Source: Agelas oroides
Taxonomy: Eukaryota > Porifera > Demospongiae > Agelasida > Agelasidae
Length of the DNA: 64,000 nucleotides
NCBI GenBank assembly: GCA_949130485.1
Contig: OX422183.1
Span: 1,755,436 to 1,819,435, forward strand
Direction: 5' to 3'
The position numbers and the translations under genes are program-made. Position 1 is the stretch's first letter, and each line of letters opens with the position of its first letter. A model generated the notes under the pieces. That model saw only the letters and a program-made list of their open reading frames with translations. It was not told the DNA's origin and did not search any database. Of this stretch, positions 3,126 to 46,870 are shown piece by piece.

Positions 3126-3164
3126 CCCTAACCCTAACCCTAACCCTAACCCTAACCCTAACCT
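3126..3164. repeat. Interstitial telomere-type repeat
   Basis: Six or so tandem CCCTAA steps, the complement of the TTAGGG telomere unit of most animals. It is embedded in the 3.5-kb unit and repeated at 8158-8190, so it is not a chromosome end here. Confidence 0.9.
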
Positions 3165-3494: not shown

Positions 3495-4849
3495 AAAAGC
3501 ACTAGGACTCACTTGATGGAGGTACGTCTTCACTAAGGATACCTATTCTGACATGCAACACTGTTAACATGGGTGTGATCCCAACTGCATTACAATCACA
3601 TTCCTTATTCCTTAAAAAAGGGTGCTACAATGCCTGTTCAAATATAACACCCCTGGAGTGTTAATATACAAAGTTGGTCACAAAGACTTCAACCTTCATT
3701 AGAATCTTTACAAAGTTTCCCTATGATAGCCAAAATATAGCCACTGATAAAATATGAAGTTACCATGGCAACCATGCACAGCAGGTGTTACTTTAGTATT
3801 ACCATACATGGTACTGATGCTGTTACTGTTATACATTCATCTCAGCATCTGGTCTCCTTTGGTGGTCCTAAGGTGCAACATTCATGTGCTATGAATACTT
3901 GGTGCATACAGTATTCATTTCATAATTACATGCTTGTGCCAGAGAAGGGGTGGAACTCTGGCTATATTCATGGCACTCTGTGTTTGTGCCAGAGAAGGGG
4001 TGGAAATCTGGCTATATTCATGGCACTCTGTGTTTGTGCCAGAGAAGGGGTGGAAATCCATGTATTATTGGCTGGACTTAAACCATGGCAAAAAGTAGGA
4101 GGTGAGCCAAGGCCTGGATCAGGCCAAACTGCAACTGAGATGACCCATCATGGGCTAAATCAATCTCTGATTTCCTATCCATGGTGCTTGCAAAAGGCAC
4201 ACAGTACAGATAAGTCTCCACAGCCTTTTTAGTTAAAAGTACCACCATAGTCCTACATAACCGTACTCTCGCGTCGAGTCGAGTGGCGAGACCTTTCACA
4301 CGCAAGCACTATTCTGGTGGTGAAAAGTGCGTAGGCGTGTTACATGCCTAACAACATTCTAGTCGTGCTCGCCCACATTCAATTAAAGTCTTTCTACCGT
4401 CTTTCTACCCGTGACGTCACTCACGTGAGAAAATGTACCAGGTCCTCTCCCACTTAACCGTACTGAAAGCGATGGGAAGCTGGGCTAGGGCCTGGGAACG
4501 AGGCTAGAGTTTAGTTCCAGGCAGTTTCCCACCTCCTTTTGCCATAGTTTTAGGGTTACTTCCTTGTCCAGTGAAAAACAATGAAGTTGCAAATGAAATT
4601 CATTTTGTAATTGCCCAAAAGGGGGGTGGAACTCAGGCTGTGAACTCTGAAAATATTCATGCACTTTGGGCTAATGTTTGGGCAGTGATTATTTACTTCA
4701 CACCTTATTGGAACTTTGAGTAGCAAAGGCTGTAACCCTACACTGTGGTAAAAGTGGGAGGCAGGTTTAGGCCAAGGTCCTGCAACTGAGATAACCCATC
4801 TTGGAGATAAATCAACCCTCCAGTTTTTTTCCAGTGCATGTGTGTGTGT

Positions 4850-15975: not shown

Positions 15976-17239
15976 AGCACTCAAATCTCCAGCTCCCAAG
16001 AGACAATTGTGTGGCAGTGCCTCATATACAAACTCATGGAAAATGGCTTTGATGTCTCCCTTGTCTTTTTTGACTTGCGTAAAGCATTCGACAGTGTTCC
16101 CCATCTTCCTCTTCTGCATAAGCTAAAAGACATTGGTCTGGACCAACACATTTTGCAGTGGATTGCTTCATATTTATGCAACAGACAACAATACGTTGTG
16201 GTGGATGGTGCTTCATCTGATACTACTTCTGTGCTGTCTGGTGTCCCACAGGGTTCAGTTCTGGGGCCTTTACTGTTTCTTATCTACATCAACCATGTTT
16301 CCTCCCTGTCACTTACTAATGGATCCAAGCTGACAATGTACGCAGACGACATCCTCCTCTACAAACCAATCAGTCAACCTGAGGATTATAGTGGCCTACA
16401 AACTGATATCGATGCCATACAGGATTGCATTAGCACCAATTACTTGACGATGAACCCACACAAATGCAAGTATCTCATTTGCTCAAGAAAGATACACCCC
16501 AATCTACCTCCTTCAGGACTCCTACTGGGTGGCGTGACATTAGAGCAGGTTGAAAGCTATCGCTATCTAGGAGTTTTGGTGTCATCCAGGCTAACCTGGT
16601 CTGATCACATCGAACATATATGTGCTAAGGCCAGGAAGCTAGTTTGGATGTTGTACAGACAGTTTTATAGCTGGGCTGACTCCAACACCCTGCTGCTTAT
16701 CTATCGTACATGCATAAGACCTCACTTGGAGTATGCCTGCCAACTCTGGGACCCATTCTTGAACAAGGGCATGCAGTCACTGGAAGCTGTGCAAAAATTT
16801 GCTTGTAAAGTCTGTCTCAAGCAATGGGACTTGGACTATGACAGTATGTTGCAACTGCTCAACCTCCCCCGTCTGTCAGTTCGTCGTAAATATCTTAAGC
16901 TAACTGCAATGTACAATATTGTTAGTGGTCATATGGACTTCCCATCTAGTATCTTTGTACAAAGTAATTTACCATACCACCTTAATCGTACAAGTACGTT
17001 TAATTTTACTAGACCTTTTGCACATACTAATTACATGTATCGCTCATTTGTACCTTCTGTAATCTCCTCCTGGAACAATTTGCCTGACTCAGTTAAATTA
17101 TGTTCTTCTATCTCCTCCTTTAAAAGATCCTTGTTGTATCACTTTGAGGCACATGTCTCACATTAGCTATCAGCTATACTCATGTTGCCTTTGTCATTTA
17201 TGACATAAATTTTATAGAAAAAAAAAAAAAAAAAAAAAA
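15976..17239 (+). mobile_element. 5'-truncated LINE with reverse-transcriptase core
   Basis: An open frame from 15976 to the stop at 17164-17166 encodes about 396 residues of a non-LTR reverse transcriptase. Visible motifs are VFFDLRKAFDSVPH (palm motif A), SGVPQGSVLGPLLFLIYIN (motif B), the catalytic MYADDILLY (YADD box), YRYLGVLVSSRLTW, and the thumb/C-terminal block IRPHLEYACQLWDPF. The last part, VPSVISSWNNLP then SISSFKRSLLYHF, is the standard end of CR1/L2/Jockey-type ORF2. An A-rich tail (17217-17239) follows. Endonuclease and first reverse-transcriptase motifs are absent, so this is a dead-on-arrival 5' truncation. The remaining frame is unbroken, so insertion was fairly recent. Confidence 0.92.
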
Positions 17240-17403
17240 GGCTGATTCCGAAGGGAAGGGCTCCGAGAAACTACCATACGATGAATGAATCGCCTGAGTT
17301 ACAGTCCAGTTGCCACAAATTTTGCGTGGTTATGGTGGTCTTCGACGGCCTCAGAAGCACTCTCATATGGTCTAAAATTTTCCTGGGGGAGCATGCCCAG
17401 ACC

Positions 17404-19482: not shown

Positions 19483-19560
19483 AGCTGTGTTAGGTTCACA
19501 ATGGTACCCACTTTCTGAGTTATTCTTTGATGCCATCTTTGTTTTCTAGCAGCAGCAACA

Positions 19561-19587
19561 ATGAGTCGCATTGAGTTACCTGAGGAG
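19561..19587 (+). CDS. Proposed first coding exon of the GTPase gene
   Basis: ATG at 19561 follows a pyrimidine-rich acceptor (ttgttttctag) and a caaca context. Nine codons (MSRIELPEE) end in a phase-0 donor GTGTGT at 19588. The next constitutive exon starts in phase 0 with ELQEK, so the LPEE-ELQEK join reads naturally with or without extra codons between. A donor-like GTGAGT near 19222 could end a non-coding leader exon. This exon is inferred, not proven. Confidence 0.55.
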
Positions 19588-22500
19588 GTGTGTGCATGTC
19601 TCGTATTGTGTTGTTGTGAGGGAATATGCATGCACATGGAATAGGATAGTGCTGCATAACAAACTTAGTCTCATCTCCAAACCAAGTTTTTCACGCATCG
19701 CCTCATTGAAAATAGGATCTGGACACTTTCACTGGGAGTACTGGGGCCTTGTATTGGCATGTTGTTACAACAATCAGTTGTATTGGTGGCATATGGAAAA
19801 GAACATGAATGGAAACTGGAAACAGAACTAGAAACAGAAATGGAAATTCAATATAGCAAGATTCACGTTTTGTTGGCTTTCATTCCTATAGGCATCACAG
19901 AGCTCTCCCCATCTCCAGTTTTTTATCACATGCTAGTCTAACCTCATTAGGCAGACATGCATAATTTAGTAAGAAACTCTGTCACATGCTTTCCATGCAT
20001 GAAGGTAAATACTTTCCTTTCCCGGTTTATCTCCTTCTAATTCCCCTTCACCCACCTCCCACTCCTCTTTCCCTCCCATGTCCCACCGTCTTCAGTGTCC
20101 TGTCTAGCAATTTTTGACCTCACTGCCACAGGAGATTACAATACCACCCATATCAGCAAACAAGCCAGATATGCAATATAACAGTGAGCATGATAGTACA
20201 CAACTAGTGTGTGATAAACAATGGTATGTACAAACTTGTACATGGCAGCCTTTTGTAGATGTTGTCATATTGTAGGCCTTCATCAGTCTAATTTCTGTGA
20301 GGAGGTTACATAAGTAATGTTGTTTCACTTGTTTGTTTTCTCTTTCCCACATGAACTGATCCATTCACTCATACTCAGGAGGTAAGTTGGCTATTAGAAT
20401 GATACATGTGCACATTGTCATACAATGCCACTGATAGAAAAACATGCATGATTAAGCAAGAAACTCTGTCACATGCCGTCTGTATCAGTGGATACTTTCC
20501 CGTTTCTCCCCTTCTTATTCCCCTTCTCTCATTCCCCACTTCTCTTTCCCTCCCCTGTCCCACCCTCTTCCATGTCCTGTCTAACAATTTTTGACCTCAC
20601 TGTCACAAGAGATTACAATACCACCCATATCAGCAAACAAGCCAGATATGCAATAGAACAGTGAGCATGATAACACACAACTAGTGTGTGATAAACAATG
20701 GTATGTACAAACTTGTACATGGCAGTCTTTTGCTGGTCTTGTCATATTGTAGGCCTTCATCAGTCTAATTTCTGTGAGGAGGTTACATAATAATGTTGTT
20801 TCACTTCTTTATCTTCCCCTCCCCACATGAAATGGTCCATTCACTCCTACTCAGGGGGTAAGTTGACTATTGGAATGATACATGTGCACATTGTCATACA
20901 ATGCCACTCATAAAAACATGCATGGTTAAGCAAGAAACTCTGTCACATGCCGTCTGTGTAGGTAGATACCTTTCCCCATTTCACCCCTTCTTATCCCCCT
21001 TCTCCCCTCCCCCACTTCTCTTTCCCTCCCATGTCCCACCCTCTTCCATGTCCTGTCTAACAATTTTTGACCTCACTGTCACAAGAGATTAGAATACCAC
21101 CCATATCAGCAAACAAGCCAGATATGCAATAGAACAGTGAGCATGATAACATACAACTAGTGTGTGATAAACTATGGTATGTACAAACTTGGACATGGTA
21201 GTCTTTTGCTGGTCTTGTCATATTGTAGGCCTTCATCGGTCTAATTTCAGTGAGGAGGTTATATAATAATGTTGTTTCACTTCTTTATCTTCTCTTCCCC
21301 ACATGAACTGATCCATTCACTCCTACTCAGTTCGTAAGTTGACTATTAGAATGATACATGTGCACATTGTCATACAATGCCAGTCATAGATAAACATGCA
21401 TGATTAAGCAAGAAACTCTGTCACATGCCGTCTGTATCAGTAGATACTTTCCCGTTTCTCCCCTTCTTATTCCCCTTCTCCCCTCCCCCACTTCTCTTTC
21501 CCTCCCATGTCCCACCCTCTTCCATGTCCTGTCTAACAATTTTTGACCTCACTGTCACAAGAGATTACAATACCACCCATATCAGCAAACAAGCCAGATA
21601 TGCAATAGAGCAGTGAGCATGATAACACACAACTAGTGTGAGATAAACAATGGTATGTACAAACTTGTAAATGGCAGTCTTTTGCAGGTCTTGTCATAGT
21701 GGCCTTCATCAGTCCAATTTCAGTGAGGAGGTTACATAATAATGTTGTTTCACTTGTTTATATTGTCTTCCCCACATGAACTGGTCCCTTCATGCACTCC
21801 TACTCAGCGGGTAAGTTGACTATTAGAATGATACATGTGCACATTGTCATACAATGCCAGTCATAGAAAAACATGCATGATTTAGCAAGAAACTCTGTCA
21901 GATGCCATCTGTATCAGTAGATACTTTCCCGTTTCTCCCCTTCTTATTCCCCTTCTCCCCTCCCCCACTTCTCTTTCCCTCCATGTCCCACCCTCTTCCA
22001 TGTCCTGTCTAACAATTTTTGACCTCACTGTCACAAGAGATTACAATACCACCCATATCAGCAAACAAGCCAGATATGCAATAGAGCAGTGAGCATGATA
22101 ACACACAACTAGTGTGTGATAAACAATGGTATGTACAAACTTGTAAATTGCAGTCTTTTGCAGGTCTTGTCATAGTGGCCTTCATCAGTCCAATTTCAGT
22201 GAGGAGGTTACATAATAATGTTGTTTCATTTCTTTATCTTCTCTTCCCCACATGAACTGATCCATTCACTCCTACTCAGATTGTAAGTTGACTATTAGAA
22301 TGATACATGTGCACATTGTCATACAATGCCAGTCATAGATAAACATGCCTGATTAAGCAAGAAACTCTGTCACATGCCGTCTGTATCAGTAGATACTTTC
22401 CCATTTCACCCCTTCTTATTCCCCTTCTCCCCCACCCCCCACTTCTCTTTCCCTCCCATGTCCCACCCTCTTCCATGTCCTGTCTAACAATTTTTGACCT

Positions 22501-25500
22501 CACTGTCACAAGAGATTACAATACCACCCATATCAGCAAACAAGCCAGATATGCAATAGAACAGTGAGCATGATAACACACAACTAGTGTGTGATAAACA
22601 ATGGTATGTACAAACTTGTAAATTGCAGTCTTTTGCAGGTCTTGTCATAGTGTAGGCCTTCATCAGTCCAATTTCAGTGAGGAGGTTACATAATAATGTT
22701 GTTTCATTTCTTTATCTTCTCTTCCCCACATGAACTGATCCATTCACTCCTACTCAGATTGTAAGTTGACTATTAGAATGATACATGTGCACATTGTCAT
22801 ACAATGCCAGTCATAGATAAACATGCATGATTAAGCAAGAAACTCTGTCACATGCCGTCTGTATCAGTAGATACTTTCCCGTTTCTCCCCTTCTTATTCC
22901 CCTTCTCCCATCCCCCACTTCTCTTTCCCTCCCATGTCCCACCCTCTTCCATGTCCTGTCTAACAATTTTTGACCTCACTGTCACAAGAGATTACAATAC
23001 CACCCATATCAGCAAACAAGCCAGATATGCAATAGAACAGTGAGCATGATAGTACACAACTAGTGTGTGATAAACAATGGTATTTACAAACTTGTACATG
23101 GCAGTCTTTTGCTGGTCTTGTCATATTCAAAATGAAATTTCCCATCTGTCCTGTGGATATGAAATCTGACATTTCTTTGACCCTTCTCCACAAATCCTGT
23201 AGAGGATAGAGCCAAATGTTGGATGTGTATGACATTTGGCTCTATCCTCTACAGGATTGGTGGAGAACGGTCAATGAAATGTCAGATTTCATGTCCACAA
23301 GACAGATGGGAAATTTCATTTCTCGCCCTGTGATTGTAGGTCTTCATCAGTCTAATTTCAGTGAGGAGGTTACATAATAATGTTGTTTCACTTGTTTATC
23401 TTCTCTTCCCCACATGAACTGGTCCATTCACTCCTACTCAGCGGGTAAGTTTACTATTACAATGATACATGTACACATTGTCATACAATGCCACTCATAA
23501 AAACAGGCAAGATTAAGCAAGAAACTCTGTCCCATGCCGTCTGTGTAGGTAGATACCTTCCCCCATTTCTCCCCTTCTTTGTCACCTTCTCCCACCCCCC
23601 ACTTCTCTTTCCCTCTCATGTCCCACCCTCTTCCATGTCTTGTCTAACAATATTTGACCTCACTGTCACAAGAGCACCAATATCAGCAAACAAGCCAGAT
23701 ATGCAATAGAACAGTGAGCATGATAACATACAACTAGTGTGTGATAAACTATGGTATGTACAAACTTGTAAATGGCAGTCTTTTGCTAGTCTTGTCATAT
23801 TGTAAGCCTTCATCAGTCTAATTTCTGTGAGGAGGTTACATAATAATGTTGTTTCACTTGTTTATATTGTCTTCCCCACATGAACTGGTCCCTTCATTCA
23901 CTCCTACTCAGCGGGTAAGTTGACTATTAGAATGATACATGTGCACATTGTCATACAATGCCAGTCATAGAAAAACATGCATGATTTAGCAAGAAACTCT
24001 GTCACATGCCATCTGTATCAGTAGATACTTTCCCGTTTGTCCTCTGCTTACTCCCCTTCTCCCATCCCCCACTTCTCTTTCCCTCCCATGTCCCACCCTC
24101 TTCCATGTCCTGTCTAACAATTTTTGACCTCACTGTCACAAGAGATTACAATACCACCCATATCAGCAAACAAGCCAGATATGCAATAGAGCAGTGAGCA
24201 TGATAACACACAACTAGTGTGTGATAAACAATGGTATGTACAAACTTGTACATGGCAGTCTTTTGCTGGTCTTGTCACATTGTAGGCCTTCATCAGTCTA
24301 ATTTCTGTGAGGAGGTTACATAATAATGTTGTTTCACTTGTTTATATTGTCTTCCCCACATGAACTGGTCCCTTCACTCCTACTCAGCGGGTAAGTTGAC
24401 TATTAGAATGATACATGTGCACATTGTCATACAATGCCACTCATAAAAACATGCATGGTTAAGCAAGAAACTCTGTCACATGCCATCTGTATCAGTAGAT
24501 ACTTTCCCGTTTGTCCCCTTCTTATTCCCCTTCTCCCATCCCCCACTTCTCTTTCCCTCCCATGTCCCACCCTCTTCCATGTCCTGTCTAACAATTTTTG
24601 ACCTCACTGTCACAAGAGATTACAATACCACCCATATCAGCAAACAAGCCAGATATGCAATAGAACAGTGAGCATGATAGTACACAACTAGTGTGTGATA
24701 AACAATGGTATGTACAAACTTGTACATGGCAGTCTTGTGCTGGTCTTGTCATATTGTAGACCTTCATCAGTCTAATTTCAGTGAGGAGGTTACATAATAA
24801 TGTTGTTTCACTTCTTTATCTTCTCTTCCCCACGTGAACTGATACATTCACTCCTACTCAGAATGTAAGTTGACTATTAGAATGATACATGTGCACATTG
24901 TCATACAATGCCAGTCATAGAAAAACATGCATGATTTAGCAAGAAACTCTGTCACATGCCATCTGTATCAGTAGATACTTTCCCGTTTGTCCCCTTCTTA
25001 TTCCCCTTCTCCCATCCCCCACTTCTCTCCCTCCCATGTCCCACCCTCTTCCATGTCCTGTCTAACAATTTTTGACCTCACTGTCACAAGAGATTACAAT
25101 ACCACCCATATCAGCAAACAAGCCAGAATGCAATAGAACAGTGAGCATGATAGTACACAACTAGTGTGTGATAAACAATGGTATGTACAAACTTGTACGT
25201 GGTAGTCTTTTGCTTGTCTTGTCATATTGTATTGCAGGCCTTCATCAGTCTAATTTCGGTGAGGAGGTTACATAATAATATTGTTTCACTTGTTTATCTT
25301 CTCTTCCCCACATGAACTGATACATTCACTCCTACTCAGATTGTAAGTTGACTATTAGAATGATACATGTGCACATTGTCATACAATGCCAGTCATAGAA
25401 AAACATGCATGATTAAGGTAGGACAATCTTGAATTGCGAATCGGGTCGATTCCGCTCATGAATAATTAATGAGGTCGGGTGACCATAATGGCGCGATTGA

Positions 25501-28500
25501 AATTCATTGGCTTGTTTACACTTTCCCATTGCGGCAACCGGAATCAACAAAGGGGCGTGTCCCTTTGATGTGGCCTGCGGCCCTTTGTAGTGGTCTGGCG
25601 GCACTTTCATGTGGCTGGGTGGAACTTTGAAAAAATCCTCCAACACTTAAAAAAAAAAAGAAAAAAAAAAAAAACACAGTAAAAAGATTTTCTAGCTCGT
25701 TGAATGTGACGGTTGGCTTTTTGTGTGTGCAAAGCTTGCCTGAGTGGGCTTGAATGTTTGTGAGTGTACTGGAAAGGCAGAGAGCCATCCTGGAAGACGG
25801 GCATCATCACATAGTTGTCTGGCAAATTAAGGTACTGTAGAAAGCTGACTTTTCGGGCTTGTAGGCCCCGCCCAATTTTATGCTAGCGGGAATGTGTGTA
25901 ACTTGGCTCCATTCTAGGGGCAATGACAGGGAGTAGGTTTGTGGGCATAACTCCCTGGCCTGGAGGTGAGCGGGAAAAAGCATACATAGTTTTGTAGGGG
26001 GTGAGTTGAGCTTTCTGAAACTGGGCTCAGTTTGGTTGGTTTGAGTGGAGGTGTGTCGAATTTTTCTTGAAAGCCAGCACAGCCAAAATGACTGTTTTTG
26101 AGGTCAAATGTGTGTTTTGGCCTGTAGACTGGAATTGAAGTGGTCCCAGGACAAATTCATACGTAAAATTTTTACTTGTTTTGTGTGTGTGTTGATGATG
26201 TGGTCAGACTGGGGGTGGAGCCTTGGAGAGGATGCAAATTTTAGTTTTAGCTGAGGGACTAAAAATTGAGTTTTTTGGCATTATCAGGTTGAGAAAGCAG
26301 TTTGGTACAAACTTTTTGTGAATCTTGTGTACACTTTGACATTGCCCATCCATCCATCCACATTACTCGGAGATCTGGGATGCAAGGTTGTCTTACCTTA
26401 AGCAAGAAACTCTGTCACATGCCGTCTGTATCAGTAGATACTTTCCCATTTCTCCCCTTCTTCTTCCCCTTCTCCCCTCCCCCACTTCTCTTTCCCTCCC
26501 ATGTCCCACCCTCTTCCATGTCCTGTCTAACAATTTTTGACCTCACTGTCACAAGAGATTAGAATACCACCCATATCAGCAAACAAGCCAGATATGCAAT
26601 AGAACAGTGAGCATGATAACATACAACTAGTGTGTGATAAACTATGGTATGTACAAACTTGGACATGGTAGTCTTTTGCTGGTCTTGTCATATTGTAGGC
26701 ATACATCGGTCTAATTTCAGTGAGGAGGTTACATAATAATGTTGTTTCACTTCTTTATCTTCTCTTCCCCACATGAACTGATCCATTCACTCCTACTCAG
26801 TTCGTAAGTTGACTATTAGAATGATACATGTGCACATTGTCATGCAATGCCAGTCATAGATAAACATGCATGATTAAGCAAGAAACTCTGTCACATGCCG
26901 TCTGTATCAGTAGATACTTTCCCGTTTCTCCCCTTCTTATTCCCCTTCTCCCCTCCCCCACTTCTCTTTCCCTCCCATGTCCCACCCTCTTCCATGTCCT
27001 GTCTAACAATTTTTGACCTCACTGTCACAAGAGATTACAATACCACCCATATCAGCAAACAAGCCAGATATGCAATAGAGCAGTGAGCATGATAACACAC
27101 AACTAGTGTGTGATAAACAATGGTATGTACAAACTTGTAAATTGCAGTCTTTTGCAGGTCTTGTCATAGTGTAGGCCTTCATCAGTCCAATTTCAGTGAG
27201 GAGGTTACATAATACTGTTGTTTCATTTCTTTATCTTCTCTTCCCCACATGAACTGATCCATTCACTCCTACTCAGCTCGTAAGTTGACTATTAGAATGA
27301 TACATGTGCACATTGTCATACAATGCCAGTCATAGAAAAACATGCATGAGCAAGAAACTCTGTCACATGCCGTCTGTATCAGTAGATACTTTCCCGTTTC
27401 TCCCCTTCTTATTCCCCTTCTCCCATCCCCCACTTCTCTTTCCCTCCCATGTCCCACCCTCTTCCATGTCCTGTCTAACAATTTTTGACCTCACTGTCAC
27501 AAGAGATTATAATACCACCCATATCAGCAAACAAGCCAGATATGCAATAGAACAGTGAGCATGATAACACACAACTAGTGTGTGATAAACAATGGTATTT
27601 ACAAACTTGTACATGGCAGTCTTTTGCTGGTCTTGTCATATTGTAGGCCTTCATCAGTCTAATTTCAGTGAGGAGGTTACATAATAATGTTGTTTCACTT
27701 GTTTATCTTCTCTTCCCCACATGAACTGGTCCATTCACTCCTACTCAGCGGGTAAGTTGACTATTAGAATGATACATGTACACATTGGCATACAATGCCA
27801 CTCATAAAAACAGGCAAGATTAAGCAAGAAACTCTGTCACATGCCGTCTGTGTAGGTAGATACCTTCCCCCATTTCTCCCCTTCTTTGTCACCTTCACCC
27901 ACCCGGCCCCCCACTTCTCTTTCCCTCTCATGTCCCACCCTCTTCCATGTCCTGTCTAACAATATTTGACCTCACTGTCACAAGAGATTACAATACCACC
28001 CATATCAGCAAACAAGCCAGATATGCAATAGAACAGTGAGCATGATAGTACACAACTAGTGTGTGATAAACTATGGTATGTACAAACTTGTAAATGGCAG
28101 TCTTTTGCTAGTCTTGTCATATTGTAGGTCTTCAGCAGTCTAATTTCTGTGAGGAGGTTACATAATAATGTTGTTTCACTTGTTTATATTGTCTTCCCCA
28201 CATGAACTGATCCATTCACTCCTACTCAGCGGGTAAGTTGACTATTAGAATGATACATGTGCACATTGTCATACAATGCCAGTCATAGAAAAACATGCAT
28301 GATTTAGCAAGAAACTCTGTCAGATGCCATCTGTATCAGTAGATACTTTCCCGTTTCTCCCCTTCTTATTCCCCTTCTCCCATCCCCCACTTCTCTTTCC
28401 CTCCCATGTCCCACCCTCTTCCATGTCCTGTCTAACAATTTTTGACCTCACTGTCACAAGAGATTATAATACCACCCATATCAGCAAACAAGCCAGATAT

Positions 28501-31500
28501 GCAATAGAACAGTGAGCATGATAGTACACAACTAGTGTGTGATAAACAATGGTATGTACAAACTTGTACATGGCAGTCTTTTGCTTGTCTTGTCATATTG
28601 CAGGCCTTCATCAGTCTAATTTCAGTGAGGAGGTTACATAATAATGTTGTTTCACTTGTTTATCTTCTCTTCCCCACATGAACTGATACATTCACTCCTA
28701 CTCAGGTTGTAAGTTGACTATTAGAATGATACATGTGCACATTGTCATACAATGCCAGTCATAGCAAAACATGCATGATTTAGCAAGAAACTCTGTCACA
28801 TGCCGTCTGTATCAGTAGATACTTTCCCGTTTCTCCCCTTCTTATTCCCCTTCTCCCATCCCCCACTTCTCTTTCCCTCCCATGTCCCACCCTCTTCCAT
28901 GTCCTGTCTAACAATTTTTGACCTCACTATCACAAGAGATTACAATACCACCTAGATCAGCAAACAAGCCAGATATGCAATAGAACAGTGAGCATGATAG
29001 TACACAACTAGTGTGTGATAAACAATGGTATGTACAAACTTGTACATGACAGTCTTGTGCTGGTCTTGTCATATTGTAGACCTTCATCAGTCTAATTTCA
29101 GTGAGGAGGTTACATAATAATGTTGTTTCACTTCTTTATCTTCTCTTCCCCACGTGAACTGATACATTCACTCCTACTCAGAATGTAAGTTGACTATTAG
29201 AATGATACATGTGCACATTGGCATACAATCCCAGTCATAGTAAAACATGCATGATTAAGCAAGAAACTCTGTCACATGTCGTCTGTATCAGTAGATACTT
29301 TCCCATTTCTCCCCTTCTTTGTCACCTTCTCCCATCCCCCACTTCTCTTTCCCTCCCATGTCTCACCCTCTTCCATGTCCTGTCTAACAATTTTTGACCT
29401 CACTGTAACAAGAGATTACAATACCACCCATATCAGCAAACAAGCCAGATATGCAATAGAACAGTGAGCATGATAACACACAACTAGTGTGTGATAAACT
29501 ATGGTATGTACAAACTTGGACATGGTAGTCTTTTGCTGGTCTTGTCATATTGTAGGCCTTCATCGGTCTAATTTCAGTGAGGAGGTTACATTATAATGTT
29601 GTTTCATTTCTTTATCTTCTCTTCCCCACATGAACTGATCCATTCACTCCTACTCAGTACGTAAGTTGACTATTAGAATGATACATGTGCACATTGTCAT
29701 ACATTGCCAGTCATAGTAAAACATGCATGATTAAGCAAGAAACTCTGTCACATGACGTCTGTATCAGTAGATACTTTCCCGTTTCTCCCCTTCTTATCCC
29801 CTCCCCCACTTCTCTTTCCCTCCCATGTCCCACCCTCTTCCATGTCCTGTCTAACAATTTTTGACCTCACTGTCACAAGAGATTACAATACCACCCATAT
29901 CAGCAAACAAGCCAGATATGCAATAGAGCAGTGAGCATGATAACACACAACTAGTGTGCGATAAACAATGGTATGTACAAACTTGTAAATGACAGTCTTT
30001 TGCAGGTCTTGTCATAGTGTAGGCCTTCATCAGTCCAATTTCAGTGAGGAGGTTACATAATAATGTTGTTTCACTTCTTTATCTTCTCTTCCCCACATGA
30101 ACTGATCCATTCACTTCTACTCAGATTGTAAGTTGACTATTAGAATGATACATGTGCACATTGTCATACAATGCCAGTCATAGAAAACATGCATGATTAA
30201 GCAAGAAACTCTGTCACATGCCGTCTGTATCAGTAGATACTTTCCCGTTTCTCCCCTTCTTATTCCCTTCTCCCATCCCCCACTTCTCTTTCCCTCCCAT
30301 GTCCCACCCTCTTCCATGTCCTGTCTAACAATTTTTGACCTCACTGTCACAAAAGATTACAATATCACCCATATCAGCAAACAAGCCAGATTTGCAATAG
30401 AACAGTGAGCATGATAGTACACAACTAGTGTGTGATAAACAATGGTATGTACAAACTTGTACATGGCAGTCTTTTGCTGGTCTTGTCAATTTGTAGGCCT
30501 TCATCAGTCCAATTTTTCAATGAGGAGGTTACATAATAATGTTGTTTCACTTGCTTATCTTCTCTTCCCCACATGAACTGATCCATTCACTCCTACTCAG
30601 ATTGTAAGTTGACTATTAGAATGATACATGTGCACATTGTCATACAATGCCAGTCATAGAAAAACATGCATGATTAAGCAAGAAACTCTGTCACCTGCCA
30701 TCTGTATCAGTAGATACTTTCCCGTTTCTCCCCTTCTTATTCCCCTTCTCCCATCCCCCACTTCTCTTTCCCTCCCATGTCCCACCCTCTTCCATGTCCT
30801 GTCTAACAATTTTTGACCTCACTGTCACAAGAGATTATAATACCACCCATATCAGCAAACAAGCCAGATATGCAATAGAACAGTGAGCATGATAACACAC
30901 AACTAGTGTGTGATAAACAATGGTATGTACAAACTTGTACATGGCAGTCTTTTGCAGGTCTTGTCATATTGTAGACCTTTAGTCTAATTTCAGTGAGGAG
31001 GTTACATAATAATGTTGTTTCACTTCTTTATCTTCTCTTTCCCACATGAACTGGTCCATTCACTCCTACTCAGGAGGTAAGTTGACAATTAGAATGATAC
31101 ATGTACACATTGTCATACAATGCCACTCATAAAAACAGGCAAGATTATAAGCAAGAAACTCTGTCACATGCCGTCTGTGTAGGTAGATACCTTCCCCCAT
31201 TTCTCCCCTTCTTTGTCACCTTCTCCCATTCCCCACTTCTCTTTCCCTCCCATGTCCCACCCTCTTCCATGTCCTGTCTAACAATTTTTGACCTCACTGT
31301 CACAAGAGATTATAATACCACCCATATCAGCAAACAAGCCAGATATGCAATAGAACAGTGAGCATGATAACATACAACTAGTGTGTGATAAACAATGGTA
31401 TTTACAAACTTGTACATGGCAGTCTTTTGCTGGTCTTGTCATATTGTAGGCCTTCATCAGTCTAATTTATGTGAGGAGGTTACATAATAATGTTGTTTCA

Positions 31501-34500
31501 CTTCCTTATCTTCTCTTCCCCACATGAACTGGTCCATTCACTCCTACTCAGTGGGTAAGTAGACTGTTAGAATGATACATGTGCACATTGTCATACAATG
31601 CCAGTCATAGAGAAACATGCATGATTAAGCAAGAAACTCTGTCACATGCCGTCTGTATCAGTAGATACTTTCCCGTTTCTCCCCTTCTTATTCCCCTTCT
31701 CCCCTCCCCCACTTCTCTTTCCCTCCCATGTCCCACCCTCTTCCATGTCCTGTCTAACAATTTTTGTCCTCACTGTCACAACAGATTAGAATACCACCCA
31801 TATCAGCAAACAAGCCATGATATGCAATAGAACAGTGAGCATGATAACATACAACTAGTGTGTGATATACAATGGTATGTACAAACATGTAAATGGCAGT
31901 CTTTTGCTGGTCTTGTCATATTGTAGGCCTTCATCAGTCTAATTTCTGTGAGGAGGTTACATAATAATGTTGTTTCACTTCTTTATCTTCTCTTCCCCAC
32001 ATGAAATGGTCCATTCATTCCTACTCAGCCGGTAAGTTGACTATTAGAATGATACATGTGCACATTGTCATACAGTCCCATGCATAGGCAGACATGCATA
32101 ATTTAGTAAGAAACTCTGTCTCATGCTGTCTATGAAAGTAGATACTTTCCCCGTTTGTCCCCTTCTTATTCCCTTCTCCCACCCCCCACTTCTCTTTCCC
32201 TCCCCTGTCCCACCATCTTCCATGTCCTGTCTAACAATTTTTGACCTCACTGTCACAAGAGATTACAATACCACCCATATCAGCAAACAAGCCAGATATG
32301 CAATAGAACAGTGAGCATGATAACACACAACTAGTGTGTGATATACAATGGTATGTACAAACTTGTAAATGGCAGTCTTTTGCTGGTCTTGTCATAGTGT
32401 AGGCCTTCATCAGTCTAATTTCTGTGAGGAGGTTACATAATAATGTTGTTTCACTTCTTTATCTTCTCTTCCCCACATGAAATGGTCCATTCATTGCTAC
32501 TCAGCCGGTAAGTTGACTATTAGAATGATACATGTGCACATTGTCATACAGTCCCATGCATAGGCAGACATGCATAATTTAGTAAGAAACTCTGTCACAT
32601 GCTGTCCATGAAAGTAGATACTTTCCCCGTTTCTCCCTTTCTTATTCCCTTCTCCCATCCCCCACTTCTCTCCCTCCCCTGTCCCACCCTCTTCCATGTC
32701 CTGTCTAACAATTTTTGACCTCACTGTCACAAGAGATTACAATACCACCCATATCAGCAAACAAGCCAGATATGCAATAGAACAGTGAGCATGATAACAC
32801 ACAACTAGTGTGTGATAAACAATGGTTTGTACAACCTTTCACGTGGCAGTCTTTTGCTGGTCTTGTCATATTGTAGTCCTTCATCAGTCTAATTTCAGTG
32901 AGGAGGTTACATAATATTGTTGTATCACTTGTTTATCTTCTCTTCCCTACATGAACTGATCCATTCACTCCTACTCAGCGGGTAAGTTGACTATTAGAAT
33001 GATACATGTACACATTGTCATGCAATGTCCCTCATAGACAAACAAATGTGCATAATTTAGTAAGACACATGCCGTCCATATAGGTAGATACCTCTCCCAT
33101 GCTTTCTGTTCTTATTCTTGTTCTCCCATCTCATCCTGTTCTATCTCTCTCCCGTTACCCTCCCTATTTTGTTCTGGAATATTCTACAGGCCCACTGTCC
33201 CAAGAGATTAAATTCCCCCCATAGTTATTGGCAAACAAGCCAAAAATGCAATAGAACAGTGGTTTACTCCGAGTGTGGTAACACACAACTAGTGTGTGAT
33301 AAACAGCTCCTCCCCCTCCCACTTCTCCCCTTCTCATTTCCTATCTCTTTTTTCCTTTCTCTTCTCTGATTTCTTCTCTTCCTTTCCTCCTTCCTCTCTT
33401 TTGTTTTTGTATGTTTTGCTGTTTACTAATCACCTTTTTTTCTCAATTTCTCGCTTGCTATGAATTGGTCCATAAAATTCAGGGCTGTTGACAGAGCAGA
33501 GGGGTTCTGGAGAAAAGATTTTGCATGCTTTGCGCATAAAACATTTTGTAACTAATTTAGTGGGCATGGTCACTTAATTAACACTGTTGATTAGTGAAAT
33601 GTACCACGTGTTTACATGTGTCAAAGTGTCCCTTTACTGAAAGCGTTACTGATCATTCTATCCAAGCGTTCACTGACAATGCAACAGAAATATATGTCTG
33701 GTGCTGAAAAGTGAAAAAAAAAAATGCAGCCCAGAAAGGTAAAAATTTAAATGCCTCATGGAGCCCCTTTTCGGGAAAAAAGTTTGGGGTTCCCGGAGAA
33801 CTATCCTCTGCTTCCCAGCCCTGTTGGTGGCCTGCATAAATTCAGTCCTACTTGAATCCACTTGTATTCCACTGCTTTTTTGATAGGAACTGCAAGAGAA
33901 GAAGATGAAAGGTGAAGTTTTTATGCACAGTTGTTACATGGCAGCCTTGTGTCAGCTGCACAAAAATTTCTTCCTGGGAAGCTTGGGGGGGGGGGGGGGG
34001 GGGTAATTCCAGACAAATTTTTACCAAAAAGAAGTGTCTCCAGCAGACAGAGAGCCAATCAGAAGGTTCCCTTACACACTTGCGGACAGCGGATGATTTG
34101 GGTGAGGAAGCCTATGCGAGCGAGGCTAGTGCTTACAATAATTCATCTAATCCAGAAGCAAGAATTGCAATATTATTTTCCTTCTGTAGTGTTGTAAATA
34201 AAACAGAATTACCAATTGATCTTTCTCACCAAATGATTCACATTTAGGTTATTATTAGATTATTTACTGCTGGTTTGGGTGAGGTCATTCTCCAATATCT
34301 CTTGAAATAGCTTCAGAGGGTCAGTGCATTTAAAACGGAAATTAGCTTTACAGATAAATGACATTGACTTCGAGTGAAAGCTTGTCCGACAGATTAAACC
34401 AAAGTGTGTTTCCAAAATGAGCAACTGAGTCGACTAGAGGCAAAGATTGTCCATCAAACCAGAATCGACATTGGACAGGGCAAGCTGATAAGATGGTACC

Positions 34501-37500
34501 TACTATATTGTGCTACACACTGAAATAGTGCAGCAGACTTGTGCATAATTGGATAACAAAATCTTCTAAGAATAGAATTTCTTTCACTAGATTATTGGAG
34601 AGAGACTGAGTGAGCCCCATATGAGTTTTGAGATGCATCAAGCTTGTGTCTCTTGGTTTGCAACAGGATTTCGTATGTACTCCAACCTTCCATTAACACA
34701 GAATAAGTTTTGAAGTTTCACCAGTACAACAAGCGGGTTTGCTAGACTAACTTGAATGCTTGTGGCAAGTGTTCTTCTATACAGGCTAAACTCACACCTT
34801 CACTCTGTGTCTCTTCTCACTAAATCTAGTATGTACAAATTTTTTACAGTGTACCACTGTCGGGAAGGTAACTCACTCAGACTCACTCCCACAATGCCTT
34901 GTATTTATCTAGTATCTACTGTTGTATTTACCTGTAAAGATGATATTTTGACCAATAGCTAAGTAACTAACTCATTGTGTCCTTTTGCCAAGTTCAATCA
35001 CCAAGGTGGCTAGGGGGCCTCATGGTTCCACTGCCCTTGTAACCACCAGTGATGTGGAACAGTAGGTGTTATAACTCTGCAAGCTTTTGGAGGTATGAAA
35101 TGCTAAACTGACCAAAAGATGATTCTTCAAGTGTTTTTTTTTAAGTTTCCTTCAAAGCAACAAGGGAGTGCATGTCTAGACTGAGGAAACCAAATTTTGT
35201 GAATGTTGTAAATCATTCAGGTCACTGTCTTTTACAATGAAGAAACAAATGTTCAATTTTACAAACTGAGAGTACACGTAATTTCACCAAATTTTAAAAC
35301 CACTTTTGGAGCTCTGCACTTTTTCAGTCATCAAATTCAGTTCCTACCTCTTTTTCTGAAGCTTACCTGGCAACACAGTTGAGTAATTCATGCACAACGA
35401 AAGTGATTTTGCTAGAAAAAAAGTGGCTACTATATGAGCTTTTGATTCTTTTAGACCATACTAGCCCATCCCCCCCCAACACACACACACACACACACAC
35501 ATGCACACAACTGTTCAATTTTGTATGGTAGGTGAAATGTTGCATGGGTGTTGGCTAACAGATGATAGTATTTGCACATGTAGCATTGGTAGACTGCTGC
35601 TAATTCCTGCTTGCAGATTATCAAGAAGCTTTGAAACTTGGCATGGTGTTGGTAGCTTACGCACGAGTAATGATGGTTGGTCCAGGAGGTGTTGGCAAGA
35701 GCAGTCTTCTTAGGGGACTCATGAATCAGCAACTACTTCAATCTGATAGTACTATTCTTGCAGACACTAAGGTGGTCAAACGACAGTTTTGGGCCAAACC
35801 AGGAACGTCTGCTGACAGCTACTGGGCTGAAGTCACTGATCAAGATGAAATTGAAGAACTGGCCAGACTGTTCCAGCTAGTACTATCAAAATTACATCCA
35901 TCTAAAGTGGCTACAGATAATCAAACTGGACTGTTCCAGCTGATACTATCAAAATTACGTCCATCTAATGTGGCTACAGTTAATCAAACAGTGGTTGCAT
36001 CTGCTGCTGTTGATGAGTTTTACCCACGAGGATACAAACCACAAAGCATTCAAACCATCAATGATGAGTATGTGTCCAGTATCAAGGACAATGATGTTCG
36101 AAGTGTGCTCCAACAGGTTGCAAAGCGTGCATTAAGTCACTCAAAAGATCAAGCTGTCCCACATACAGAAGTACTGATGCATGTGTGGGATTGTGGTGGC
36201 CAACCTGTCTTCCTTGATGTCCTCCCAGCCTTTCTGACATCCAGGACAATGTTCCTCCTCTTCTTTGATGCTCACCAAGACCTATGTGAGAAATGCAGTT
36301 CATTGTTTCACAAAGCAGGGAGGCTAGTTTCCAAAACTGAACAGAGTTTCACGACACTGCAGCTCCTAACTCAGTGGATGGCCAGCATTCATGCTATGTA
36401 CATACGAAAGGATGCAATAGAAGGTGCCAACCAAAAAGCATCCACTACACCATCAGAAGGTGAAAGTCCAGCTACACAAGGAAGGAAAACACATGCCTCT
36501 GATCCTGCTCATGATCACAAAGAGCAACAAATTTCTGCCAGAAACCAGCACAATTTTGAGGAGAGCATCATCCCAAAGTTCCCACGCATTATTCCAGTTG
36601 GTACACATGGTGATGAAGTACAAGAAAAAGAAAAAATCCTCCATACCCTCCTATCTCACTGTGAGGGTAAAGCATATGCTCCTCTACTTCTGAACGGTGT
36701 CATTGTTGACAACACCACAGCTGGCCGAGGCAAGGAGTGTGAAGACAAAGGGTTCAGATACATCCGAGAAAGAGTGCATCAATTTGCCTCAAAGCATCTT
36801 GCAGTTCAAACGCCAGTAGGCTGGGTTCTGTTTAGGAAAGTCCTTCAGATGGTTGCAAAAGGCAGCCCCATTGTCTCATATGAGCAAGCAGTTGCAGTAG
36901 GACAAGCTTGTGGGATAGCGGAGGATGTTGTCCCCAGTGTTCTTCATTTCTATCATGAGCTAGCTGTCTTCCTCCACTACACTCAAATTGAGAGTCTCTT
37001 CGACAAGGTGATTGTTGATCCACAGTGGCTGGTAAGGCAGCTTGGCAGGCTACTAGCACCAGAAGGGTTGGAACAGACAGTTTCAAGCCAATTGCTTTGG
37101 AAACCACTGCATGAGAAGGGCATCCTTGTTCAAGCTTTGTATGAAGAAGTTTGGGATGAAAGCATCCTAAAACCACAATCACTTGCTGACCTTCTTGAGC
37201 ACTTCCTTCTTGCAGCTGAAATTCATCCTCCAAAATCAGTTACTCCATATGAAGGCCTAAAATACTTTGTCCCCTCTGTTCTGAAGCTCTCAATGCAGGA
37301 TACTGACAGCACGCCTACATCCAGGGAACCTGTGAAGATGTCTTCTCCTCTTCATCTCACATTCAGCACACAGTATGTACCTCCTGGCTTCTTCACTCGC
37401 CTGGCAACCACTCTTACAAAGGAACCAAAATGTGAACCACTCTTTGAACACAATGTCTACCACAACAAGATAACATTTGCCTATGACCAAATTGATGAAT

Positions 37501-39514
37501 TTACAATCTGTGAACAGTCCTCAAGTGTACAAATCAATGTAGTTCGAATCCAACATCGCCAGTCACACAAGATAATGACTTTTGGAAACACTTGCTGCGC
37601 TATCATGGAACTAATTCATGCATGTTCTGCCATAGTTGGTCAATGGCTACCTTCAGTAGAGGTAAAACCAGCCATCCTATGTGAAAAGTGTCCAGACTTC
37701 ATCACCATTCCATGTGGTGCGGATACAGGTTTAAATGTCTACTGTAAAGCACGTCATCACTGCAATCTCACCAAGGAAAAACAGTACTGGCTGAAAACAC
37801 CTAGTACTCCAGAGGTTTGTTGTTTGTGTAGATGTTATAGGTGTTAGTTTGCACGTTTCTGCTATTGTGATACATCAGCAGTGGATAACTATTAAAGATC
37901 GAAGTATTATGCACTCCTGGATGTTTTTGATAACATTCCCATTTCACTAAAAGTATATTTGGTTCATCCTTAAGACTCGTCCAAATACATTAAAGGGACA
38001 TATTCGTTACACATATTTTATTTCTGTAGCACCTCGCACAGAAGGGTGACCTCAGTGATGCAGAGTTGGAAGGAGTAGCGCGTGATATCCAGAAATATGA
38101 CAAACTAAAACAACTAGCAGATGAACTGGAAATGGTTCCCCAGCTAAAGTCACTACAACATGGTGTGAATGCCCCACTAACACTACTTCGTCGTTGGCGT
38201 GATGAGATAAAGGATGGGTTAGAAGCTCACTCCCTCTTGGTATATCATCTCAAGTGCATTGGATTGCCAGGAACATCTGACAGGTAACATTTGCGTTGCA
38301 CGATGTACAGTCCAACATGTTGACAACTCAAGATGTGAACCAGATCATTTTGTGTCTCTGTTACCTCTTTCACAGCCTCTATTATCGAGAGTTTCTTTCA
38401 CCCTCTAAAATGAATCCCATTGCAGTAAGTCAATATAATAGCACTTTATGTGGCAAAGTATTGCAAAGAACATCCCATGTTCACACTGTAGCTATTTTCT
38501 GCAGAGGACATGCTGAGGTAAATTAACCATGCAAACATGGAATGTTATAATTCCTCTGATACTTAATGTGAATTCACATATCAAATAATAGTGCATAGCG
38601 TCATATTACTGTAGGACCACCAGTTTTTGTTCCATAATTGCTGCAATGTCTTTGATATTAGGTTTGAATATTTGGAGGTATGTTGGTTTGTGGGTGTTCA
38701 TTTACTCAACTATAGAAAAGTGCCTTCATTCCTGTAGGACAACAATAGAGCTGCAAGGGACGGTGGTCGTGGTTGTGAACTAGTCAGTTCAGTTGACAAC
38801 ACTTCCAGAACATCCAGAGGTAGTGTTCCCCACTATGATACAGTTGAGAGTACTTAAAATTTCAGTGTCAGAATTTTCATAGTAAATGTGTATAGGCAGT
38901 ACAATATCTTACACATTTCTTGCAAAATTAATTCCTCCTCCCAGGTAATTCGGACCGTTGTCAACCAGAGAATTCGAAGTGGGAGAATGTGGATGACACT
39001 CCATTAGGCAAGTAACACATCATGGACTATACATTATATGAAGCAGGCCAGTCCAGTAAAATTGAAACTGACTAGCGCATTGATCAATCTTCTAGTACTA
39101 CTTCAAATCCCCAGAGATTTTCCCAGTACCTCACCAAGATTATACCTTGGTTACTTCAACTGTGCAAGGTGTACTTCTTAGTTAGGTACTAATGTGTTGT
39201 GCATTACAATCTCTATTGTCTCCAACCCTTCAGCGGAAGACTCCCTGAGGACTATTCTGGACAGCATTTCCACCCTCACAGCAGAGTGGTTCAAGCTTGG
39301 TGTGGCACTTGGACTGTCTTATGGCACATTGAGAACAATTGAGTCTAACTACCGAGATGCACACAGGTGTCAGACAGAAATGGTGATAGCATGGTTGCAA
39401 ATGAAAGATAATTCGCAGCCCAGTTGGCAGTCATTAGCTTCCGCTCTAAGCTCACCATCAGTGAGCAGAATTGAAATAGCCACTATGGTTGCTGCAGAGC
39501 ACGTGTCACATTAG
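19561..39514 (+). CDS. Roc-COR-like GTPase with two death-like domains, intron-1 microexon array
   Basis: Proposed exons: 19561-19587 (MSRIELPEE), optional 3-nt exons 20379-32981, 33887-33911 (ELQEKKMK), 35617-37814, 38030-38283, 38376-38424, 38738-38819, 38945-39007, 39234-39514. Every junction keeps phase; the intron after 39007 is GC-AG. Without microexons it encodes 992 residues. Near residue 39 is a P-loop (GPGGVGKSS). WDCGGQ is the G3 switch, and IIPVGTHGD sits where G4 is expected. A COR-like winged-helix region follows (GWVLFRKVLQMV, then VIVDPQWLVRQLGRLL). Exon 38030 encodes one death-like domain and exon 39234 another (WFKLGVALGLSYGTLRTIE). A 21-residue stretch is duplicated at 35868-35993. 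The protein resembles ROCO/NLR-like cytosolic signalling proteins without leucine-rich repeats. Start and first exon are inferred from the acceptor at 19547-19549, the Kozak A at -3 and phase. Confidence 0.82.
23128..23335. mobile_element. Hairpin MITE inside the array
   Basis: A 208-bp insertion between tcatatt and gtagg of one unit. Its halves are inverted copies (gaaatttcccatctgtc against gacagatgggaaatttc), with possible att target duplication. It accounts for the 684-bp spacing between the sixth and seventh cassettes. Confidence 0.85.
25417..26397. mobile_element. TTAA-flanked piggyBac-like element inside the array
   Basis: 981 bp flanked by TTAA at 25413-25416 and 26398-26401, exactly where ordinary units have a single ttaa. 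Termini are inverted (ggtaggacaatcttg and caaggttgtcttacc). 981 plus 4 bp explains the 1,461-bp spacing of cassettes 11 and 12. Precise TTAA duplication is the hallmark of piggyBac-type transposition, although the end sequence differs from the usual CCC start. No transposase frame. Its right end recurs at 41000. Confidence 0.82.
33481..33827. mobile_element. hAT-like non-autonomous element at the array's right end
   Basis: Ends cagggctg...cagaggggttct and its inverted, imperfect partner ending cccagccctg. It starts just where the last, decayed unit would have had its acceptor, so it removed a 26th cassette. No clear flanking duplication. Confidence 0.55.
33887..33911 (+). CDS. Small second constitutive exon of the GTPase gene
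   Basis: 25 nt between a gcttttttgatag acceptor and a GTGAAG donor. It reads ELQEKKMK in phase 0 and ends in phase 1; the large exon at 35617 begins in phase 1, making GAT (D) at the join and YQEALK next. The phase match on both sides is the evidence. Confidence 0.65.
33985..34004. repeat. Poly-G tract
   Basis: About 20 consecutive G in intron 2 of the GTPase gene. Similar G or C runs are at 13279, 42821, 43341, 51166, 62827 and 63652. Confidence 0.95.
34005..35616 (+). other. Intron 2 of the GTPase gene
   Basis: No further exon recognised. AT-rich with a CA microsatellite near 35480-35500. The intron ends with the acceptor cctgcttgcag at 35616. Confidence 0.6.
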
Positions 39515-46704: not shown

Positions 46705-46870
46705 TCCATTCTGCCAATCTCCGTGTTTACAATCTTGACATTTCCAATACAGACATTTCCAATCTGGACATTTCCAATCTGGACATTTCCAATATAGACA
46801 TTTCCAATTTGAACATTTCCAATCTGGACCTTTCCAATCTGTATCTGCGTATCATTTTTGCGCATGCGCA
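46684..46870. promoter_or_regulatory. Shared 5' module: 15-bp repeats plus NRF1-like palindrome (copy 1)
   Basis: From 46684 the sequence matches, in opposite orientation, 55269-55379: the ATG-MALLGHR segment, ~45 bp of leader, an array of 15-bp steps (catttccaatctgga type, eight here) and the palindrome tgcgcatgcgca at 46859-46870. That palindrome fits the NRF1 binding consensus. It lies between two divergent genes (minus to 45553, plus from 46914), so a bidirectional promoter role is plausible. Confidence 0.6.

Follow-up and report, generated by a model that had tools for sequence, protein, structure and literature searches.

Tandem arrays of putative one-codon microexons upstream of a family of Roc-COR GTPase genes in the sponge Agelas oroides

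A 64,000-nucleotide stretch of the genome of the sponge Agelas oroides (assembly GCA_949130485.1, contig OX422183.1, positions 1,755,436 to 1,819,435, forward strand; hereafter, the window) carries, upstream of the Roc-COR exon of a GTPase gene, 25 tandem units in which a variable triplet is enclosed by a constant acceptor-like and a constant donor-like sequence. We found core sites of this kind at 17 related genes, and the genomic sequence strongly supports the view that the triplets are one-codon microexons whose splice signals are held constant while their content is diversified. On balance, it seems reasonably probable that these are real microexons of a Roc-COR(-Death) GTPase gene, that splicing adds them to its N-terminus in order and without a frame shift, and that duplication, conversion and strong selection diversify them.

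The window contains 25 exact matches to the core TACTCAG-NNN-GTAAGT (Table 1). CGG occupies the triplet seven times and ATT five times; GAG, TTC, AAT and CCG occur twice each, and GGG, CTC, GTT, TAC and TGG once each, so that 11 different codons specify 11 amino acids. These matches and tallies agree with a preliminary description, made from the window sequence, which had counted 25 in-register units with 11 triplet values. The array consists of two tandem-repeat blocks of period 476, and its units follow one another at 467-481 bp, except at two places, where the spacing is 684 and 1461 bp and insertions are present. One insertion, of about 0.2 kb and with a long inverted repeat, lies between microexons 6 and 7 (about 23127-23333); the other, of about 1 kb, transposon-like and with TTAAG at both edges, lies between microexons 11 and 12 (about 25420-26480). 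When the 25 units were aligned with MAFFT (582 columns, with scoring restricted to columns of at least 15 letters), the three triplet positions had the highest column entropies (1.89, 1.82 and 1.44 bits), followed by a column at 1.35 bits. The triplet had been described as the standout variable place in the unit, and it proved to be so in the full alignment, although position 3 stands barely above the best non-triplet column.

Throughout the 259-Mb genome, the core was matched 851 times (399 and 452 by strand), compared with 9 times (6 and 3) in a backward-read control, which rules out a chance origin of the matches. With 480 residues from the Roc-COR exon as query and 89 out of 264 candidates scored, which leaves room for more copies, 17 main loci were obtained at 65-100% identity, along with 13 further pieces that represent the same exons; beyond these, identity drops to relatives at no more than 36%. 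All 17 close paralogues have core sites upstream on the same strand, the distance between the Roc exon and the nearest site seen being about 1.5 to 55 kb, and an oddity confined to the window is thereby ruled out. Twelve of the 17 arrays were read as sequence, wholly or partly; the other five, on contigs C1 (5378356, 5717137, 6199352 and 8447456) and C9 (8740050), are known from positions, with two sites each among the matches listed for C1:5378356 and C9:8740050. Arrays are roughly 4 to 48 kb long and comprise 12 to 65 units where better read, the maximum being that of region A1 (65 units; GAG 15 times, CGG 13 times). An array of about 48 kb whose 452-nt introns are almost the same throughout (C1:8525787-8573911, plus strand), upstream of the Roc gene at C1:8628657, has at least 53 sites among the matches listed; 13 units were read in 6 kb, and by extrapolation the full count may be near 100. 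An additional long array was observed at C9:8671100-8708000 on the minus strand, with no Roc-COR gene downstream among the matches listed. Single core matches on C3, C5, C6, C10 and C12 were regarded as background rather than array members, and a different short-period repeat containing TACTCAGCCTGTAAGT (C1:4092213-4095658, minus strand) was taken as non-array. In other sequence collections, one viral contig and three prokaryote contigs contained one core each.

The anatomy of the unit was examined in 283 units read in 12 regions. Units measure about 306 to about 510 bp depending on the gene, and the introns that separate the cores also vary; the conserved parts are an upstream block starting with GATGAGGTTACATAATAATGTTGTTTCACTT, a pyrimidine-rich stretch, TGAACT, the core and then TTGACTATTAGAAT. 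Each base of TGAACT, located at -27 to -22 relative to the triplet, is kept in 88-99%, and this motif is the likely branch site. The ctgat motif previously regarded as branch-like is not conserved in other arrays; T occupies position -21 in 144, G in 136 and C in 2 of 282 units. In the genome and unit counts, the core is 100% conserved by construction, as the search required exact matches. An anchor-based census of the stretches read, which catches part of the 283 exact units, returned 217 sites, of which 211 were exact, 1 was spurious and 5 had an altered core, with the donor altered in 2 of these 5. Downstream of the core, every base of TTGAC is conserved in 92-100% of 282 units; with this flank (GTAAGTTGAC), core halves separated by 0-2 or 4-15 nt were found nowhere in the genome.

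In the window, the array sits between exon 1 and a 25-nt exon (exon 3) that runs in frame into the Roc-COR exon, in which Roc (PF08477, 6.4e-10) and COR-A (PF16095, 1.3e-12) domains were found. The end given for the Roc-COR exon is the stop of its open frame, which does not fix the 3' splice boundary. A Death domain (PF00531, 2.8e-7) lies in a separate downstream frame, which is probably the C-terminus of the same gene. Exon 1 was identified in three regions (A1, A2 and A3, the window among them), each time with a phase 0 end and the donor gtgtgt; its peptide is MSDRKPSHNQ in A1 and MGNGESSEK in A2. Exon 3, for which AG before and GT after were required, was recognised in six of nine stretches (A1, A2, A3, C9_9.31, C1_5.64 and C1_6.13), each time with 25 nt, in one common frame and in phase 0. 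Wherever the flanking exons were identified, the triplets are in frame with both. The coding part of exon 1 is strongly divergent among three paralogues (window, L038 4214-4264 and L042 3644-3691) amid a well conserved surrounding intron, and hence the whole N-terminus may be fast-changing.

The 283 triplets comprise 32 codons for 19 amino acids (every one except cysteine), and their third base is G in 206, matching the donor preference. Compared with counts expected from position-wise base frequencies, AGN triplets are absent (12.7 expected), CAG occurs once (22.7 expected) and stops are absent (10.6 expected); AAG is seen 8 times (8.3 expected) and GAG 46 times (18.3 expected). If repeats of a codon within an array are ignored (95 entries), there are no stops (4.7 expected), no AGN (4.3) and one CAG (4.7). 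Genome-wide, CAG occurs nine times and TAG and TAA do not occur; the only AGN is on contig C5, where no other site was seen, and the only TGA is a lone site on C10. According to the NAGNAG rule, an AG right after an acceptor, or a CAG or TAG three bases on, competes with that acceptor. Since AGN, CAG and TAG would compete in this manner, their scarcity looks like the mark of working acceptors.

Rates of change were compared in nine arrays, using trees built from the flanks alone and Fitch parsimony changes per column over 255-292 flanking columns; C1_6.07 was omitted, and C1_8.55 and C17 were outside this test. In seven of the nine, triplet positions 1 and 2 had more changes than every flanking column, for example, 18 and 17 changes in A1 against a flank maximum of 8, and 8 and 9 in C9_8.45 against a maximum of 3. 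The excess over the column mean was 7- to 36-fold in those seven arrays and 4- to 36-fold over all nine, and parsimony gave a total of 108 codon changes and 106 amino-acid changes. Recent duplicate blocks, which were admitted only if their introns differed by no more than 1.5% (identity of at least 98.5%), differ at 14-20% of triplet bases versus 0.3-0.5% of intron bases: 14/99 versus 49/16487 in nine little-overlapping rows, and 33/162 versus 155/31974 in all 26 overlapping rows. In C9_8.45, units 8-14 were duplicated as 15-21 with 7/3546 intron differences and 4/18 triplet differences, and in the C1:8.55 Mb array, five 452-nt introns with 0-3 differences are preceded by ATC, CTT, TAT, CTC and ATC. 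A block at lag 9 in A1 has no change at all (introns 0/2321, triplets 0/18), and a repeated block in C17 keeps its codons; in the window array, C1_5.64 and C1_6.13, no duplication row met the intron threshold. Triplets were found to differ at two or three bases between units sharing hundreds of identical flanking bases. The core flanks hardly differ among the units, so that a whole triplet could be swapped tracelessly by a short conversion tract, and we infer that duplication, short-tract conversion and diversifying selection together account for the variation; a targeted mutation process at the triplet is also conceivable. The preliminary proposal of one-codon microexons with constant signals and diversified content is thus supported by the paralogues, the phase-0 flanks, the 3-nt spacer, the lack of AGN and the fast triplets, with splicing itself being inferred from these features of the DNA.

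How such an array might operate can be outlined as follows. The spliceosome would join exon 1, whose gtgtgt donor is weak, to a microexon, and the strong GTAAGT donor acquired by this joining would then serve the next acceptor and drive the next step, until the steps end at the constant 25-nt exon and then the Roc exon. A stepwise route would be natural because an acceptor and a donor only 3 nt apart could hardly be occupied simultaneously. Microexons would be added in array order, some of them probably being skipped, and as each step would add one codon and keep the frame, any ordered subset would make a readable mRNA. The product would be a gene-specific variable peptide placed after about 9-10 exon 1 residues and before the Roc domain, possibly with a role in recognition or signalling. 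The array would grow and turn over by tandem and block duplication, near-identical units would exchange triplets, and strong diversifying selection would keep variety within splicing limits (length 3, G last preferred, AG never first, no stop). A further-reaching version of this scheme, which we put forward tentatively, is that each mRNA carries its own ordered subset of single-codon exons, in 17 or more Roc-COR genes, so that n cassettes would provide up to 2^n N-termini as a cell- or individual-specific recognition label; the triplet would be the preferred site of change, via conversion or a targeted process, and the repertoire would evolve in the germline and be sampled in RNA.

Constitutive inclusion of all microexons, which would produce peptides reaching 65 residues or more, is an unlikely but not negligible arrangement. 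The codons of A1 in order read RIEEWIEKVKRIKRDRR...EEKKWLREEN, a helix-like sequence continuing into EQEEKKLK of exon 3, those of C9_9.31 likewise read like a charged helix, and the pooled hydrophobic moment is maximal at 100 degrees. However, the helical periodicity in array order (nine arrays, with C1_6.07, C1_8.55 and C17 left out), which had a combined shuffle p of 0.005-0.013, was no longer significant when the duplication pattern was kept (p 0.13-0.19), Pro, Gly or Trp abound in other arrays, and lossless splicing of dozens of consecutive 3-nt exons would be demanding. Because the order signal fades under this control and because of the composition of the other arrays, ordered inclusion with skipping is favoured with moderate confidence. 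Slightly less credible is a mutually exclusive choice of the Dscam1 kind, in which each mRNA would receive one microexon and a single residue would vary. Cassettes that lie in tandem, have equal splice signals and differ in content, such as the 11 codons in the window, would suit this choice, but at most 19-20 outcomes would result, and it is unlikely because the 65 units of A1 exceed 20 useful outcomes. Docking-selector pairing was also not detected in a narrow test, in which the first 150 nt and the last 200 nt of the window intron region, each against one unit, had duplex energies equal to those of 15 shuffles each.

That the array is a satellite without splicing, in which 3 bp form a mutational hot spot or undergo site-directed mutagenesis, has little probability. 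It would accommodate triplets that differ at two or three bases amid hundreds of identical flanking bases, which is faster than point mutation suggests, but it fails to predict the sense orientation at 17 of 17 genes, the phase-0 flanks, the absence of AGN and TAG, the fixed 3-nt length and the nearly fixed GTAAGT. A hot spot with no splicing role, which the preliminary description had listed as an alternative, leaves the splice-type limits on the triplets unexplained; hypermutation could, on the other hand, supply variation to a spliced system. The least probable explanation, also among the earlier alternatives, is that the units are recursive-splicing ratchet points aiding the removal of a long intron with the triplet as a by-product, for although acceptor and donor are almost juxtaposed and the arrays extend over kilobases, ratchet points need a zero spacer (as stated in the part of PMC8605326 consulted), the zero-nt form is absent genome-wide with the TTGAC flank and was rejected, the 3-nt spacer found throughout would remain in the mRNA, and a by-product would not be expected to outpace the introns.

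Several observations weigh against spliced, in-frame microexons as we envisage them. Exon 3 was unrecognised in C9_8.45 and C17, although both stretches include the Roc exon; it was also unrecognised in C1_5.906, where the stretch ends short of the gene. The full rate excess is missing in two of the nine arrays, C1_5.64 (4 flanking columns reach the triplet level) and C1_5.906 (13 columns), C1_6.07 with its 5 units was too small for the rate test, and the intron-identity threshold for duplication rows inflates the triplet/intron ratio. Distant arrays were assigned to their genes from order and strand. We set aside the absence of stop codons as chief proof of translation: that of TAG may be explained by acceptor competition rather than stop avoidance, and TAA and TGA together are expected only about once in 283 units because the third base is mostly G. 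The fading of the helical order signal under the duplication control counts here as well. No retrocopy of the exon 3-Roc junction was found in the genome (0 matches at up to 3 mismatches), and no database protein had the joined N-terminus, the 13 matches covering 49-71% of the 45-residue query, which is about what the Roc-exon part alone yields; the best-scoring match, P0044, begins in intron-like sequence ahead of the Roc exon. Relatives in protein databases number at least 861 at E up to 1e-10 (8000 candidates scored), and exon 3-Roc joining was found in none of 17 sequences read. The relatives read, 16 in number, all resemble genomic open frames or begin within the Roc exon; P0001 (the window's own copy) and P0076 start inside that exon. 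Among solved structures, only weak Roc-COR matches were obtained (9 sequences, best E 4e-4).

Diversified tandem exons are known from other systems. Exons 4, 6 and 9 of Dscam1 form tandem clusters of alternative exons, one of which is chosen per mRNA, partly via docking-selector RNA pairing. At the sequence level, the present arrays are similarly duplicated in tandem, diversified and placed between constitutive exons; Dscam1 exons, however, are far longer and used one per mRNA, whereas here the units have 3 nt, number up to 65 and gave no docking signal in the narrow test. In working principle, the arrays resemble tandem exon clusters, which does not imply membership in that class. Schistosome micro-exon genes (MEG) and aphid bicycle genes encode proteins from many tiny in-frame exons, but these exons are longer and unlike one another in sequence, and they do not form arrays of near-identical units. 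Hypervariable positions in near-identical tandem repeats are also seen in the repeat-variable residues of TAL effectors and the contact residues of PRDM9 zinc fingers. This likeness is an analogy only: there the repeat is protein, and here it is intron, of which only the variable codon would be protein.

Isolated 3-nt microexons have been described, in the portion of PMC7392893 consulted, as Drosophila homothorax micro-Ex8 and in troponin T and NCAM. As far as that source goes, they are, like the units here, single-codon, in frame and between canonical splice sites; they are lone exons, in contrast to the tandem hypervariable units at 17 genes, of which the better-read arrays have 12 to 65. 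Ratchet points, in which acceptor and donor are juxtaposed with no spacer according to the excerpt of PMC8605326, share with the arrays a nearly juxtaposed acceptor and donor in a long intron and a likely stepwise removal. The arrays lack the defining feature, an AG directly before GT; their 3-nt spacer, unlike the 0-nt one, would stay in the mRNA, and its content is hypervariable. The "microexon clusters" of PMC8831610 and PMC7821500 are, in the parts of these papers that were available, groupings by sequence or expression, not arrays. As anticipated in the preliminary description, no description of one-codon exon arrays was found in the literature, covered by titles and abstract openings, with bioRxiv and most subscription journals outside this coverage.

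Should the triplets be retained in mRNA, part of a gene would be spelled out by single-codon exons spread over kilobases to tens of kilobases, throughout a gene family. Such arrays would represent a new route to protein diversity, would test how the spliceosome handles dozens of successive 3-nt exons, and would be candidates for a hypervariable recognition system of an animal lineage.

Table 1. Putative microexons of the array and features of the gene around it, in window positions.
Feature	Position	Strand	Remarks
Exon 1	19550..19587	+	coding 19561-19587, MSRIELPEE; phase 0 end, donor gtgtgt
Microexon 1, GAG (E)	20379..20381	+	exact core match
Microexon 2, GGG (G)	20855..20857	+	exact core match
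Microexon 3, TTC (F)	21331..21333	+	exact core match
Microexon 4, CGG (R)	21808..21810	+	exact core match
Microexon 5, ATT (I)	22280..22282	+	exact core match
Microexon 6, ATT (I)	22758..22760	+	exact core match
Microexon 7, CGG (R)	23442..23444	+	exact core match
Microexon 8, CGG (R)	23912..23914	+	exact core match
Microexon 9, CGG (R)	24388..24390	+	exact core match
Microexon 10, AAT (N)	24862..24864	+	exact core match
Microexon 11, ATT (I)	25340..25342	+	exact core match
Microexon 12, TTC (F)	26801..26803	+	exact core match
Microexon 13, CTC (L)	27277..27279	+	exact core match
Microexon 14, CGG (R)	27749..27751	+	exact core match
Microexon 15, CGG (R)	28230..28232	+	exact core match
Microexon 16, GTT (V)	28706..28708	+	exact core match
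Microexon 17, AAT (N)	29182..29184	+	exact core match
Microexon 18, TAC (Y)	29658..29660	+	exact core match
Microexon 19, ATT (I)	30125..30127	+	exact core match
Microexon 20, ATT (I)	30601..30603	+	exact core match
Microexon 21, GAG (E)	31074..31076	+	exact core match
Microexon 22, TGG (W)	31552..31554	+	exact core match
Microexon 23, CCG (P)	32029..32031	+	exact core match
Microexon 24, CCG (P)	32505..32507	+	exact core match
Microexon 25, CGG (R)	32979..32981	+	exact core match
25-nt exon 3' of the array (exon 3)	33887..33911	+	ELQEKKMK + 1 nt; phase 0 start
Roc-COR exon	35617..37847	+	DYQEALKLG... GPGGVGKSS; PF08477, PF16095; open to stop at 37847
Open frame with Death domain	39182..39514	+	PF00531 domain match; probable joining to the gene

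Other repeats and elements were observed elsewhere in the window. A reverse-transcriptase-like coding stretch with a poly-A end at about 16000-17240, read by eye only, is probably a non-LTR (long terminal repeat) element. One 50-bp tandem repeat is present at 440-564 and again at 3934-4058, and CCCTAA runs occur at 3126 and 8158; these are perhaps parts of a larger duplication. A 39-bp minisatellite with 19 copies and 97% matches occupies 52678-53426, and other 15/45-bp repeats are located at 53529-53874 and 46726-46841.

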